Origin: Kutzneria kofuensis
GTDB lineage: Bacteria; Actinomycetota; Actinomycetes; Mycobacteriales; Pseudonocardiaceae
Reading direction: 5' to 3'
Assembly: GCF_014203355.1 (NCBI RefSeq)
Contig: NZ_JACHIR010000001.1
Coordinates: 992,001 to 1,056,000 of the forward strand
DNA: 64,000 nt
Shown: positions 3,985 through 44,158 of the stretch, one piece after another
Position numbering within the stretch: the stretch's first letter is position 1
How the letters are laid out: every line of letters begins with the position of its first letter
Notes under the pieces: generated by a model
Seen by the model: only the letters and a program-made list of their open reading frames with translations
Databases searched by the model: none
Told to the model about the DNA's origin: nothing
Translations under genes and position numbers: made by a program

Positions 3985-4181
3985 CGTGCCGACCTTTCGG
4001 GAGCGTGCGGTGGGGTACACCGCCAATGCTAGGTCGGACGTGGCCTGGTGTTTGAGGCCAATCTGACACAATTCCGGAAGGCCACTTCGCCGGCGGGCTT
4101 GTCCGACCAGCGGTTCGGGTGTGAGATCGAACACATCGAGGTGTACTCCAGGCCAATTCGGTTCGTTCGGGAGGTGACCCC

Positions 4182-6308
4182 ATGGGGTCCAAGAACACCG
4201 ACAACACCCATTCCGGCGGCGCGGTCGCTGTAGCCGACCCGGCCAAGGTCCGCAACGTCGTGCTGGTCGGCCCGTCGGGGGCCGGCAAGACCACCCTCAC
4301 CGAGGCGCTACTGGCCGCCTCCGGCGTGCTGACCAGGGCCGGGTCCGTCACAGAGGGCACGACCGTGTGCGACCACGACCCCGCGGCGCAGCGGCAGCAG
4401 CGCTCGGTCGGGCTGGCGGTGGCGCCACTGGTCCACCAGGACATCAAGATCAATCTCATCGACACGCCCGGATACGCCGACTTCGTCGGCGAGCTGCGGG
4501 CCGGCCTGCGCGCCGCCGACGCGGCGATCTTCGTGGTCAGCGCGGCCGAGGGCGTGGACGCGATGACCATGGCGCTGTGGGAGGAATGCGCGGCCGTCGG
4601 CATGCCGCGCGGCGTCGTGATCGCCCGGCTGGACCACCACCGCGCCGACTTCGACGCGGAGCTGGCGTCCTGCCAGGAGGCGTTCGGCGCCGGCGTGCTG
4701 CCGCTCTACCTGCCGGTGCCCGGCTCCGGCAACACCAAGCTCGTCGGCCTGATCACGCAGCGGGTCTTCGACTACTCCGGCGGCTACCCGCCGACCGTTC
4801 AGGACCCGGACGGCGACCTCGCCGACTTCATGGCCGATCACCGCAACGCGCTGATCGAGGGCGTCATCGCGGAGAGCGAGGACGAGACCCTGATGGACCG
4901 CTACCTCGGCGGCGAGGAGATCGACCAGGATGTGCTCATCGCCGACCTTTTGGCCGCCGTCACCCGGGGCTCGTTCCATCCGGTCGTGCCCGCGTGCGCG
5001 GCGACCGGACTCGGGCTGGCCGAGATCCTGGACGGCATCGTGCGCGCCTTCCCGTCGCCGCTGGAACATCCGCTGCCCTCGGTGACCGATCCCGTCGGCG
5101 GCACCGTGCTGGACCTGACCACCGACCCGGACGGCCCGCTCGCGGCCGAGGTCGTGCGCACCGCCGTCGACTCGTACGTCGGTCGGGTGTCGCTCGTCCG
5201 GGTGTTTTCCGGGACGCTGCGGCCGGAGCGGTCCGTGCACGTGTCCGGGCACGGCATGAGCGACCGCGGGCACGAGGACCACGACGAGGACGAGCGGGTC
5301 GCGCACATCTACTCGCCGCTCGGGTCGAACCTGCGTGAGGTGCCGTTCTGCGTGGCCGGCGACCTGTGCGCGCTGACCAAGCTCGGCTCGGCGGAGACCG
5401 GCGACACCGTGTCCAGCCCCGACCAGCCGCTGCTGATGTCGCCGTGGCTGATGCCGGAGCCGCTGCTGCCGGTCGCCATCGTGGCTCGTAAGCGGAGCGA
5501 CGAGGACACGCTGGCCCGCAACCTCGCGCGGCTGGTGGCCGGGGATCCGACCCTGCGGCTGGAGCGCAACACCGAGACGCACCAGATGGTGTTGTGGTGC
5601 ATGGGCGAGGCGCACGCCGACGTCGTGCTGGCGCGGCTGCGCGCCGGCGGGGCCGAGGTCGACACCGAGGACGTTCGGGTGCCGCTACGTGAGACCTTTG
5701 CCAAGCCCGCCAAGGGACACGGCCGGCACGTGAAGCAGTCCGGGGGGCACGGTCAGTACGCCGTGTGCGACCTGGAGGTCGAGCCGCTGCCGCGCGGGGC
5801 CGGCTTCGAGTTCGTCGACCGGGTCGTCGGCGGCGCGGTGCCCAACCAGTTCATTCCCAGCGTGGAGAAGGGTGTGCGGGCGCAGCTCGCGAAGGGTCTG
5901 CACGGCGACCACCCGTGCGTCGACGTGCGCGTGACCCTCGTGGACGGCAAGGCCCACAGCGTCGACTCCTCCGACGCCGCGTTCCAGACCGCCGGCGCCC
6001 TGGCGTTGAAGGAGGCCGCCGCCAACAGCCGGATCTCGCTGCTGGAGCCGATGGACGAGGTCACCATCCGGCTGCCCGACGACTATCTCGGCGCCGTGCT
6101 GGGGGATCTGTCCAGCAAGCGGGCCCGGGTGCTGGGCACCGAGGCCGACGTGACGCCCGGCCGGACCTTGATCCGCGCCGAGGTGCCCGCGACCGAGCTG
6201 ATCCGCTACGCCGTCGAGTTGCGGTCCCTCGCGTCGGGGACCGCGACGTTCACCCGGCACTTCGCGAGGTACGACCCGCTGCCGGACAATCTGGCCGCGA
6301 AGGCGTGA
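4182..6308 (+). CDS. fusA2: Elongation factor G-like protein (EF-G2)
   Basis: 708 residues with the full EF-G layout: G domain (GPSGAGKTT at residues 30-38; switch [10 protein letters not shown] near residue 92), domain II, then domains III-V, ending about 8 residues after [13 protein letters not shown]. The G4 motif NKxD that fixes guanine specificity reads ARLD (VVIARLDHH), as in the EF-G2 subfamily of actinobacteria rather than FusA1. M. smegmatis EF-G2 is reported to bind nucleotide but not to replace EF-G in translocation. A divergent role here is inferred. ATG start with GGGAGG 7 nt upstream. Transcribed alone, ending at a strong hairpin. Confidence 0.9.
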
Positions 6309-39250: not shown

Positions 39251-41113
39251 ATGGATTCCTGGATGTTCATGCGCGGCGCGATGGCTCGGGCGGACGCCCC
39301 GAGCCAGGTGCGCCGCGGCACCCTGCGGCGGGTGCTGGAGTTCGCCCGTCCGCACTGGGGCAAGTTGGCGGTGTTCCTCGGGCTGACGGTGGTGGACGCC
39401 TTCCTCGCGGTCAGCACGCCGGTGCTGGCCGGCCGGGTGGTGGACTCGATCATCAACCGGGCCGCGCTGGGCGTGGTGGTCGGGCTGGCGGTGCTGATCG
39501 CGCTGGTCGCGGTGGTCAGCGCCGGCACCAGCCTGGTGGAGCGCTGGCAGTCGTCGCGGATCGGCGAGGGCCTGATCTACGACCTGCGCCGCGCGGTGTT
39601 CGAGCACGTGCAGCGGATGCCGGTCGCGTTCTTCACCCGCACGAGGACCGGCGCCCTGGTCAGCCGGCTCAACAACGACGTGATCGGCGCGCAGCGGGCG
39701 TTCACGTCCTCGCTGTCGGGCCTGGTCACGAACGTGATCCAGCTGGCGCTCTCGCTCGGCGTGATGCTGTCGCTGTCGTGGCAGGTCACGCTGCTGGCGC
39801 TGGTGCTGCTGCCGGCGTTCCTGCTGCCGGCGCGGCGGATGGGCACCCGGATGGCCGGGCTGGAGCGGGAGGCCGCGGGGCTGAACGCGGCGATGACCAA
39901 CCAGATGACCGAGCGCTTCTCCGCGCCCGGGGCGACGCTGGTCAAGCTGTTCGGGCGGCCGGCGGCGGAGGCGGCGGAGTTCGGCGACAAGGCGGAGCGG
40001 GTGCGGGACATCGGCATCCGGACCGCGATGGCGGCGCGGTGGTTCCTCACCGGCATGTCGCTGCTGCCGACGATGGCGCAGGCCCTGGTGTACGGCGTCG
40101 GCGGCTACCTGGCGCTGAGCGGTCAGCTCGCCGCCGGCACGGTCGTGTCGCTGGCGCTGCTGCTGACCCGGCTCTACACGCCGCTGACCGCGCTGGCCAA
40201 CGCGCGCGTCGACATCATGACCGCCCTGGTGTCGTTCGAGCGGGTCTTCGAGGTGCTGGACGTGCGGCCGATGATCGTGGAGTCGTCGCGCCCGACGCCG
40301 CTGCCGGAGGGGCCGGTCTCGGTCGAGTTCGACGACGTCAGGTTCGCCTACCCGTCGGCGGACCAGGTGTCGCTGGCGTCGCTGGAGTCGGTGGCCAACC
40401 TGGACACCCGCGGCGGGCAGGAAGTGCTGCACGGCATCAGCTTCCGCGCCGAGGCCGGCCAGCTGGTGGCGCTCGTGGGCTCCTCCGGCGCCGGCAAGTC
40501 GACCATGGCGTCGCTGGTCCCGCGGCTCTACGACGTGACCTCCGGCGCGGTGCGGCTGTCCGATGTGGACGTTCGGGAGCTGTCGTTCGACGACGTGCGC
40601 GGCGCGGTCGGCGTCGTGACGCAGGACGGGCACCTGTTCCACGACACCATCGAGGCCAACCTGCGGTACGCGCGGCCGGACGCCAGCAGCGAGGAGCTGT
40701 GGGACGCCATCGAGCGGGCCCGGCTCGGCGACCTGATCCGGAGCCTGCCCGACGGCCTGGAGACCGTGGTCGGCGAGCGCGGCTATCGCCTCTCCGGCGG
40801 CGAGCGGCAGCGGCTGACCATCGCCCGGCTGCTGCTGGCCCGGCCCCGCGTGGTGATCCTCGACGAGGCGACCGCGCACCTGGACTCCGAGTCGGAGGTC
40901 GCGGTGCAGGCCGCCCTGACCGAGGCGCTGCAGGGCCGGACCGCGCTGGTGATCGCGCACCGGCTGTCCACCATCCGCGCCGCCGACCAGATCCTCGTCA
41001 TCGAGGACGGCCAGGTGGTGGAGCGGGGCACGCACGCCGAGCTGATGGCCGCCGACGGCCGTTACGCGGAGTTGCACAACACGCAGTTCCGCGAGCAGCC
41101 CTCGGTCGCCTAG
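39251..41113 (+). CDS. ABC exporter half-transporter (TMD-NBD)
   Basis: 620 residues: an N-terminal tail, about six helices to residue 330, then an NBD with Walker A GSSGAGKST near residue 412, Q-loop VTQDGHLF, signature LSGGERQR near 515, Walker B VVILDEATAHLD with intact Glu near 540, and H-loop IAHRLST. All sites are canonical, so a homodimer is likely. The start ATG 39251 follows a G-rich ribosome binding site. Immediately downstream lies the remnant of a TetR regulator that might once have controlled it. Confidence 0.92.
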   Translation: MDSWMFMRGAMARADAPSQVRRGTLRRVLEFARPHWGKLAVFLGLTVVDAFLAVSTPVLAGRVVDSIINRAALGVVVGLAVLIALVAVVSAGTSLVERWQSSRIGEGLIYDLRRAVFEHVQRMPVAFFTRTRTGALVSRLNNDVIGAQRAFTSSLSGLVTNVIQLALSLGVMLSLSWQVTLLALVLLPAFLLPARRMGTRMAGLEREAAGLNAAMTNQMTERFSAPGATLVKLFGRPAAEAAEFGDKAERVRDIGIRTAMAARWFLTGMSLLPTMAQALVYGVGGYLALSGQLAAGTVVSLALLLTRLYTPLTALANARVDIMTALVSFERVFEVLDVRPMIVESSRPTPLPEGPVSVEFDDVRFAYPSADQVSLASLESVANLDTRGGQEVLHGISFRAEAGQLVALVGSSGAGKSTMASLVPRLYDVTSGAVRLSDVDVRELSFDDVRGAVGVVTQDGHLFHDTIEANLRYARPDASSEELWDAIERARLGDLIRSLPDGLETVVGERGYRLSGGERQRLTIARLLLARPRVVILDEATAHLDSESEVAVQAALTEALQGRTALVIAHRLSTIRAADQILVIEDGQVVERGTHAELMAADGRYAELHNTQFREQPSVA

Positions 41114-41223
41114 GAGCGGGCGCGGTTGTTGGCGTTCGCCAGTAGCCACAGCGCCGCGAAGTTCCCGACCGGCACGGACCCGGCCACGATCAGCGCGGCC
41201 GGGTCCGGCCGGTAGAGCGGCAT
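41110..41223 (-). pseudogene. 3' remnant of a membrane protein gene
   Basis: The minus strand reads PLYRPDPAALIVAGSVPVG, then NFAALWLLANANNRARS and a stop at 41110-41112. It has consistent G/C at third codon positions and one membrane helix. No start or N-terminal part exists upstream; coding sequence passes directly into the oppositely oriented TetR remnant. The family is not recognised. It overlaps the ABC exporter stop by 4 bases. Confidence 0.5.
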
Positions 41224-41480
41224 CCGGGCCACGCTGGCGGAGCTGGTGCCCATCGACGAGCACGGGCGCATGGTGTCGCTGGTTGTTCATCGTGTTCTTC
41301 GTGCGGGCGTTGAACGACCCGGCGTTGAGCGAGGCGTTCCGCGGCGACGACACCGACGAGCTCGCCGCCTTCTTCACAGGGTTGGACCGGCAGTCCCAGG
41401 CCGACGGGACGTCGCCGCCGTGGCCGCATCCCGAGCGGGAGGTGGCGACCCTGATGGCCGTATCAGCAGCCACGAATGTG
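41224..41480 (+). pseudogene. TetR/AcrR regulator C-terminal remnant with frameshift
   Basis: The frame begins IRATLAELVPIDEHGRMVS, the usual TetR C-domain opening, then shifts by one base near 41279 and continues WLFIVFFVRALNDPALSEAF and GLDRQSQADG. Removing one C at 41279 restores a single frame. The whole DNA-binding domain is missing. The 3' part decays after about 41480. The stretch 41481-41703 holds no gene; it contains the AT-richer upstream region of the repeat protein. Confidence 0.6.
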
Positions 41481-41703
41481 CGGTTCGGGCGTACTCCATC
41501 GGGATTCACCCGATTGCTTTCCATTCGAACCACTCGATTGCATCACTCCGGACGGCCGGATTGGCATTTATAGTGATAGCGGTCGAATATCGGTGAGACC
41601 GCAGATTTCGATATGTGGCGCAACGGACGCCCAGCGGCTGCCATAGCCGGGTTGTGGTCGACGCCCGGCATGTCTCGACCAAAAACCAGAAGGAGGACCA
41701 AGC

Positions 41704-42438
41704 GTGCGCGCTACAAGGGCCCTGAAGTCGTGGAGATCCGCCATCGTGACAGTGCTGAGTCTCAGTGCGCTCGCACTGACGACAGCACCTGCCATGGCAT
41801 CGGGAGACCGGTATGTGAATCTGCACCAGTGCGTGTACAGCAGTGGCACCTACCTCTACACCAACGTGCTGTCCACCACACCCAACACGCCCTTCAACAC
41901 CGGGACGAACGTCTCGGACACGCGTGACACCGCGGCACAGTGCGGTTCCGCGTCCTCCGGCTGGTCGCTCAACACGGCGAACGTAGCCGTGCAATCCCTG
42001 GACCGGGTACGTGGCCGATATCTGAATCTGCACCAGTGCGTGTACAGCAGTGGCACCTACCTCTACACCAACGTGCTGTCCACCACACCCAACACGCCCT
42101 TCAACACGGGGACGAACATCTCTCACACACCCGACTCCGCGGTGAAATGCGGTGCCGCGTCCGCTGGTTGGACGCTTAATTCGGCGAACACGGCCGTCCA
42201 ATCCCTGGATCTGGCCGCCGGGCGGTACCTGAATCTGCATCAGTGCGTGTACAGCAGTGGTAGCTACCTCTACACGAACGTGCTGTCCACCACACCCAAC
42301 ACGCCCTTCAACACCGGGACGAACGTCTCGGACACGCGTGACCCGGTGGCACGGTGCGGTCCCGGGTCCGCCGGCTGGACCCTTAATTCGGCGAATGTGG
42401 CCGTGCAATCCCTGGATCTAGCCCCAGGCGCGCCCTGA
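41704..42438 (+). CDS. Secreted protein built of three 69-residue repeats
   Basis: 244 residues. Signal peptide 1-33 (basic start, hydrophobic core AIVTVLSLSALALTTAPA, cleavage after AMA). Mature protein: three tandem 69-residue units starting at R36, R105 and R174, then two extra residues. Each unit runs RYLNLHQCVYSSGTYLYTNV, STTPNTPFNTGTNVSDT, then a Cys-Gly, and SGW-LN-AN-AVQSLD. Each unit has exactly two Cys, so one disulfide per unit is likely. It is rich in Asn, Thr, Ser and Tyr. I do not recognise the family; a repeat adhesin, lectin-like or inhibitor-like extracellular role is possible. GTG 41704 follows a strong AAGGAGG. A terminator lies 70 bp downstream. Confidence 0.75.
   Translation: MRATRALKSWRSAIVTVLSLSALALTTAPAMASGDRYVNLHQCVYSSGTYLYTNVLSTTPNTPFNTGTNVSDTRDTAAQCGSASSGWSLNTANVAVQSLDRVRGRYLNLHQCVYSSGTYLYTNVLSTTPNTPFNTGTNISHTPDSAVKCGAASAGWTLNSANTAVQSLDLAAGRYLNLHQCVYSSGSYLYTNVLSTTPNTPFNTGTNVSDTRDPVARCGPGSAGWTLNSANVAVQSLDLAPGAP
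41809..42429 (+). repeat. Three tandem 207-bp coding repeats
   Basis: Units 41809-42015, 42016-42222 and 42223-42429. DNA identity is highest over the first 120 bp of each unit, which are nearly unchanged among all three, and lower over the last 60 bp. The length is an exact multiple of three, so the reading frame is kept. The pattern suggests recent duplication or gene conversion. Confidence 0.9.
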
Positions 42439-42510
42439 CGAACGAGAGCACACTCCGAAGGGCCGTCGACGGCGTTTGTCGGCAACCCCTTTGTCATCCC
42501 CCGCGTCACC

Positions 42511-42543
42511 GAACGGGCCGCACCTGCCGGGCGCGGCCCGTTC
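42511..42543. terminator. 11-bp perfect hairpin after the repeat protein
   Basis: gaacgggccgc, 11-nt loop, gcggcccgttc. It lies between the repeat-protein gene and the VOC gene on the same strand and separates their transcripts. Confidence 0.7.
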
Positions 42544-42583
42544 CGGCGCTTCGGCACGGCTACGGTGTGGCAGGGTGGGCGGC

Positions 42584-42994
42584 GTGGAGCTGAAGCTGGA
42601 GCTGGTGTTGCTGCCGGTCACCGACGTGGACCGGGCGAAGGCGTTCTATGCCGACAAGTGCGGCTTCCACGTGCACGTGGACCACCGGGCGGGCGAGAAC
42701 TTCCGGGTGGTGCAGATGGATCCGCCCGGCTCGGCCTGCTCGATCGCGTTCGGTGTCGGCATCACCGACGCGGCGCCGGGGTCGATCAAGGGTCTGCACC
42801 TGGTCGTGACCGACATCGTGGCGGTCCGGGACGAGCTGGCGGCCAAGGGGCTGGAGGTCAGCGAAGTCCGGCACATGAAGGACGGGTGGCAGCCGGGCGT
42901 GGACCCCGACCACACCGACTACAACTCCTTCGCGGACTTCGCCGACCCCGACGGCAACACCTGGGTGCTGCAGGAGAAGGGCTACCAGGCGTAG
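42584..42994 (+). CDS. VOC/glyoxalase superfamily protein
   Basis: 136 residues in a single VOC unit: LELVLLPVTDVDRAKAFYADKCGF at the start, FRVVQMDPPGSACSIAFG, and DPDGNTWVLQEKGY at the end with the conserved terminal metal-site Glu. Such proteins act as glyoxalases, dioxygenases or antibiotic-binding proteins; nothing here decides which. GTG 42584 is the most likely start (GTG 42575 is possible). The stop abuts the convergent serine hydrolase gene. Confidence 0.8.
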   Translation: MELKLELVLLPVTDVDRAKAFYADKCGFHVHVDHRAGENFRVVQMDPPGSACSIAFGVGITDAAPGSIKGLHLVVTDIVAVRDELAAKGLEVSEVRHMKDGWQPGVDPDHTDYNSFADFADPDGNTWVLQEKGYQA

Positions 42995-44158
42995 CTACTC
43001 GTCCAGCGCCGCGTAGACCCCGTTCCAGAAGTCCAGGTACAGCGGCGAGCTCAGCGGGAACGCCGCCCGCTGCGTCATGAGCACGGCCGTCAGCTCCTCG
43101 GCCGGGTCGTTGTGCCACGAGGTGCCGAGCCCGCCGTCCCAGCCGTACCGGCCGGGCGTGGCCCACAGCTGGTCCCGCTTGGTCACGACCTGCACGCCGA
43201 AGCCCCAACCACGGTGCTCGCCGAAGAAGCCGGGCCAGAAGCCGTCGTTGGCGTGCTGCTCGGGCGTCAGCTGGTCGGTGGTCATCAGCCGCACGGACGG
43301 CCGCGACAGGATCCGCTCCCGGCCGTGCTTTCCGTCGCCCAGCAACATGGTGGCGAAGGCCAGGTAGTCGTCGGCGGTGGAGACCAGCCCGCCGCCGCCC
43401 GCCTCGAACGCGGGCGGCTTGCTCCACTGGCCGTCCACGGCGTCGAAGACCTGGCCGTCCGAATAGCTGACGGTGAGCCGGCCGAGGTTCTCGGCCGGCA
43501 CGTGGAAGCCGGTGTCGATCATGCCGAGCGGCTCGAACAGGTGCTCCCGCATGGCCTCGCCGAGCGTCTTGCCGGTGGCCCGGGCCAGCAGCACGCCCAG
43601 GATCTCCGCGCCGACGTGGTACATCCACCGCTCGCCCGGCTGGCTGAGCAGCGGCAGCGTGCCGAACCGGCGCATCCACTCGTCCGGCTCGGGCGGGCCG
43701 GCCGGCTGCGGCGGGCCGTCGCCGAGCCCGAGCTGCAACTCCGCCGCCGCGACCTGCACGGGATAGGTGCCGGGCGGCGCGTAGATACCGCCCCAGCCCA
43801 GCCGGAACGTCAGCAGGTCCCGCAGGGTGATGGCCCGGTTGGCCGGCACGGTGTCGTCGATCGGGGCGTCGATCGACGTGAGCACGCGGCGGTCGGCCAG
43901 CTCCGGCAGCAGCTCGTCGACGGGCTCGTCCAGCCGCAGCCGGCCCTGCTCGACCAGCACCATGGCCAGCGCGGCGGTGATCGGCTTGGTCATGGAGCTG
44001 ATCCGGAAGATGGTGTCCCGCCGCACGTCCCCGATCACGTCGACGTGTGTCTCGCCGCGCCGGTGGATCACGCTGACCAGGCCGGGGCAGGCGCCGTCCT
44101 CGACGTGCCGGCGCAGTGTGTCGTGCAGGCGGGTCAAGCCCGTGCTGGACAGGCTCAT
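42995..44158 (-). CDS. Serine hydrolase of the beta-lactamase (class C)/esterase family
   Basis: 387 residues, no signal peptide. SxxK motif S55-M-T-K58 in FRISSMTKPI and a Tyr-containing ERWMYHVGAEI as the YxN-like region. These are features of EstB-type esterases and D-aminopeptidases rather than exported beta-lactamases. Cytoplasmic hydrolysis of esters or peptides is likely. The start overlaps the stop of the hydrolase-methyltransferase fusion as ATGA, so the two are coupled. Confidence 0.85.
   Translation of the reverse strand: MSLSSTGLTRLHDTLRRHVEDGACPGLVSVIHRRGETHVDVIGDVRRDTIFRISSMTKPITAALAMVLVEQGRLRLDEPVDELLPELADRRVLTSIDAPIDDTVPANRAITLRDLLTFRLGWGGIYAPPGTYPVQVAAAELQLGLGDGPPQPAGPPEPDEWMRRFGTLPLLSQPGERWMYHVGAEILGVLLARATGKTLGEAMREHLFEPLGMIDTGFHVPAENLGRLTVSYSDGQVFDAVDGQWSKPPAFEAGGGGLVSTADDYLAFATMLLGDGKHGRERILSRPSVRLMTTDQLTPEQHANDGFWPGFFGEHRGWGFGVQVVTKRDQLWATPGRYGWDGGLGTSWHNDPAEELTAVLMTQRAAFPLSSPLYLDFWNGVYAALDE

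Follow-up and report, generated by a model that had tools for sequence, protein, structure and literature searches.

Gene and Unit Layout

The window, a 64,000-nucleotide stretch of DNA from the soil actinomycete Kutzneria kofuensis, contains at 41704-42438 a GTG-initiated gene for a product of 244 amino acids plus stop; this gene and the window features given coordinates below lie on the + strand. The coding sequence was defined by ORF call, translation, and comparison with relatives. A Shine-Dalgarno-like AGGAGGA, read from the sequence at 41691-41697, precedes the start codon with a six-base spacing. Residues 1-32 (41704-41799) resemble by eye a Sec signal peptide with cleavage after AMA, in line with the secretion signal proposed in the initial annotation. 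After it, three residues lead into the three 69-codon units, which two further codons separate from the stop, and the mature protein is thus, as first described, almost nothing but units.

The units lie at 41809-42015, 42016-42222, and 42223-42429, as found by repeat search, cysteine count, and an AlphaFold2 model. In the DNA they are 207-nt copies without indels, starting at 41808, 42015, and 42222 in the repeat search (the codon register is one base later). Identity to copy 1 is 84% for copy 2 and 86% for copy 3. All three units have exactly two cysteines, so both the tandem arrangement of 69-residue units and the single Cys pair in each hold. The product is the single match in a search of its own 10.4-Mb genome. 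A GC-rich hairpin at 42511-42543 was found as an inverted repeat (arms 42511-42524 and 42530-42543, 93% complementary over 14 nt), and by blastn it ends the segment shared with locus L081. Of the terminator that had been placed in the right flank, the hairpin is present and the terminator role is possible.

Probable Insertion Site

The left flank contains, at 41221-41461, the remnant of a TetR gene that is cut at both ends and frame-broken. At the corresponding site of the same-genus genome G142, the TetR gene is full-length and has the Pfam domains TetR_N and TetR_C_6, which supports the deletion scar suspected in this flank. TetR stretches are also retained at the corresponding site in G126 and G057. 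The 41704 gene is flanked by an ABC transporter gene and by one of the glyoxalase superfamily. These two lie near each other in G142, G057, G126, and G109 with no gene of the 41704 type between them, and about 30 bp separate the flanks in G109. Since TetR is full-length or partial, or the flanks nearly meet, in genomes of one genus, the site changes often. The differing site content in blastn also agrees with the fluid region that had been proposed. In G057 (L078, about 380-1606), the stretches homologous to TetR and glyoxalase are separated by approximately 1.2 kb that has no match in the window, so acquisition of DNA at this site may be frequent.

Family Members and Distribution

A pattern scan covered 84,980 species with one genome apiece; peptide words such as YLNLHQCV were among the patterns. 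The scan gives 31 loci in Saccharopolyspora, Actinokineospora, Kutzneria, Kitasatospora, Streptomyces, Nonomuraea, and Actinomadura. Among them, 25 are judged complete and comprise 22 three-unit genes, two two-unit genes (L024 and L026), and a single one-unit gene (L031). The unit number therefore varies between species, the initial annotation having suggested that it may do so between strains, and none of the 25 complete loci has more than three units. The six incomplete loci end at a contig border (L021, L029), contain an N gap (L028), or have broken or partial frames (L025, L030, L032). On one Streptomyces contig (L044, L031/L054), about 10 kb separates a gene with three units from one with a single unit.

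Genome searches with a profile of 23 rows (A1) find the gene in 6 of the 297 genomes searched from the window's taxonomic family, in 2 of 396 of its phylum, one being the window's own, and in 13 of 392 of a genus taken as Streptomyces; these counts are lower bounds, with 7-10 first-pass candidates scored per genome. A three-unit member occurs in one of 72,556 plasmid records, on an 853-kb Kitasatospora replicon, where it is annotated as 'hypothetical protein'. The 50,697 phage records contain no match, and no relative was found by pattern scan in the IMG/VR viral contigs. The gene is patchy and has probably spread horizontally. No recurrent partner gene is seen beside it: by a crude ORF caller, the largest cluster of neighbours covers 5 of 32 loci, and no common theme emerges from 18 neighbours scanned at 16 loci.

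A Probably Mobile Segment and Its Upstream Element

G126 and G109 contain the gene at places other than the ABC transporter/glyoxalase site. The surroundings of these two copies have only the gene segment in common over about 9 kb, and the same is true by blastn when either place is compared with window positions 40900-43200. With G109 the shared segment spans 41476-42543; with G126 it spans 41476-42488 and also includes the hairpin. A Saccharopolyspora copy (L002) has only 41615-42428 in common and lacks the upstream element.

This element (41476-41585) is promoter-like, with two direct repeats of the type CACYCGATTGC recognised by eye, and was delimited by alignment and by blastn to L080, L081, and L082. 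It accompanies the gene in three same-genus genomes. Its 21-base core (41505-41525) is found in three of six same-genus genomes searched: one copy in the window genome, two in G109, and one in G126, together with a three-mismatch match in the last. The core pattern has no match in G142, G057, or G019. The three-mismatch match may be due to chance, because a reversed control pattern also matched once, in G126. The second G109 copy of the element (L082, about 2316-2428) precedes an O-methyltransferase gene, so the element may be a regulon promoter.

The GC3 of the 41704 gene is 0.78, versus 0.91-0.985 in three neighbouring genes. In the gene tree, L002 and the three copies from the same genus form a four-way fork without resolution (99/98), and a clade of the same-genus copies alone is weakly rejected (p-AU 0.035); the tree may be distorted by conversion between units. 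For the left flank of the window, mainly the ABC transporter, the best match is 88-90% in each of four genomes of the same genus, 82% and 80% in a further two, 79-80% in two genomes of other genera, and 72% in the Saccharopolyspora genome. Horizontal spread or repeated relocation of the gene segment is the best reading of these comparisons. No transposase or target-site duplication was noticed when these sites were compared.

Selection and Homogenisation of the Units

For six relatives, compared in 15 pairs, dN/dS ranges from 0.14 to 0.40 (NG86, on 66 codons per unit). The protein is therefore kept by selection, and on such sequence evidence the coding sequence is not a product of chance. Over the 15 pairs, dN is 0.13-0.30 in unit codons 41-66 versus 0.06-0.18 in codons 1-40.

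Between the units of the window, 6-13 of the first 120 bases differ, versus 21-25 of the last 87. Likewise, dS ranges from 0.15 to 0.39 in the first 40 codons versus 0.57 to 0.77 in the last 29. Between the window gene and L004 of Kutzneria sp. CA-103260, dS is even, with 0.36 in codons 1-40 and 0.41 in codons 41-66. The near-identity noted earlier for the first 120 bp is thus right in kind, and this part of the units has been homogenised, for which gene conversion is the simplest explanation. A tree of 15 units clusters the units of G109 (85/93) and those of G276 (100/99) by species, but unit 2 of the window gene by position with unit 2 of L004 and of L002 (98/98); many remaining branches are weakly supported. 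The three units in G776 (L051/L052) are almost identical at the DNA level, differing at 0-4 positions of the first 120 nt and at 0-2 of the rest, which suggests very recent copying or conversion of units there.

Unit Anatomy and Predicted Fold

Unit conservation was counted over 103 units from 37 proteins, of which 32, including the window protein, have three units, two have two, and three have one; the one-unit set includes the broken or partial frames L030 and L032. Duplicates, fragments, and broken copies (19 of 55 loci) were left out beforehand. The most constant positions are C45 (103 units), T33, S36, and Y10 (98 each), and G32 (95). Q7 and C8 occur in 103 of 103 units and N4 in 101, a constancy that is partly built in because these residues belong to the unit-finding motif and similar words found the loci. 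Exactly two cysteines are present in 102 of the units, and the remaining unit has one extra. The unit alignment (A2) contains no invariant or nearly invariant Asp, Glu, or His, and hence no obvious catalytic set.

AlphaFold2 gives a confident model for the three-unit window protein. The prediction for a single 69-residue unit proposed in the initial annotation likewise yields a confident model of one natural unit, and in prediction a unit folds autonomously. Each unit is probably closed by one disulfide, predicted between Cys 8 and Cys 45. The predicted fold is very confident and has no significant structural match in the PDB in the searches done. Solved beta-trefoils are not among the structural matches listed; the unit may still have that fold.

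Likeness to Known Systems

The initial annotation did not recognise the family, and the libraries searched do not recognise it either. The best Pfam-A match of the window protein is PF04490, at 20.3 bits versus a curated cut-off of 25, and the best NCBIfam match has 12.2 bits versus a cut-off of 500. PHROGs and the PDB sequences give no convincing match. Among the 23 A1 members, a PASTA domain (E 2e-5) is found in one, L027 of Nonomuraea (4113-4946), in which it is located C-terminal to the three units, as read from the sequence. The other 22, including the window protein, differ from PASTA proteins in having no such domain at E 0.01. Besides PASTA, three Pfam families match one member each (E 0.0004-0.003).

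The repeats resemble by eye the GRYL-type strand start of the AbfB carbohydrate-binding domain (PF05270), a beta-trefoil, but no profile match supports this: the family is absent from the Pfam results, and hhalign against 12 AbfB domains gives probabilities of 0.1% and 0.2%. Structure comparison lists an OB-fold segment of MCM helicase N-terminal domains, with 8% identity and a Z score in the tool's uninformative range. Any likeness is structural only, and the window unit differs in having a Cys pair and in belonging to a protein with a signal peptide. Actinohivin-type lectins of actinomycetes are secreted and have three tandem repeats of about 38 residues. By description, the window protein shares three tandem repeats in a putatively secreted actinomycete protein and possibly the way of working, but its repeat is 69 residues long.

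Possible Function

A stand-alone, multivalent, lectin-like extracellular binder is the reading given most weight, with not quite an even chance. It is suggested by the lack of invariant acidic residues or His, the absence of a recurrent partner, the signal peptide, the paired cysteines, and the presence of one to three units. The protein would be exported, and removal of the Sec-type signal peptide would leave a fixed array of three beta domains of about 69 residues. Each unit may bind at a single site, and a row of three would give avidity for a repeated extracellular ligand such as a polysaccharide, cell wall, or surface glycan, from the cell itself or from a competitor. With one site per unit and avidity from the row, the protein could work alone. 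The C-terminal PASTA domain in one of 23 members fits a cell-wall role, thin as this support is. The missing invariant Asp, Glu, or His is weak evidence against catalysis, because active sites may vary across so diverse a set. Known binding modules give no sequence match and no clear structural match in the searches done.

The anatomy described would equally be expected of an inhibitor or of a structural protein. Tandem multi-headed enzyme inhibitors are known, and a secreted inhibitor of proteases or glycosidases, in which each disulfide-bonded unit blocks one enzyme, would suit small stand-alone two-Cys units in one to three copies. The faster change in codons 41-66 is also what a reactive-site region might show. 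However, no hypervariable loop is seen beyond this gradient, no inhibitor family of Pfam or NCBIfam matches the window protein, and none in Pfam matches the 23 members. This explanation is rather unlikely. A structural or surface-coat protein of spore, aerial hypha, or biofilm matrix, built from the repeats, is less probable still. Its units are partly homogenised at the DNA level and it has, by eye, an export signal, but its very patchy occurrence (the 13 of 392 and 6 of 297 genomes above) is unlike that of a core developmental protein, and no complete relative exceeds three units. The patchy, mobile-looking, stand-alone secreted gene would also suit a competition protein that harms other microbes. 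This is the most improbable of the readings, as no recurrent neighbour offers an immunity candidate and the window protein matches no toxin family known to Pfam or NCBIfam.

To return to the binder, the unit may, at clearly less than even chance, represent both a novel beta fold, small and disulfide-bonded, and a novel module with which actinomycetes bind extracellular targets; it would occur in one to three copies and spread as a minimal promoter-gene-terminator segment without its own transposase. The family adds to the searched libraries a secreted domain that they lack, with a very confident predicted fold for which the PDB searches gave no significant match. Kutzneria, Streptomyces, and Saccharopolyspora are known sources of bioactive products. 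The natural one-unit version of 69 residues should be easy to express and solve, and the series of one, two, and three units permits a direct test of avidity.
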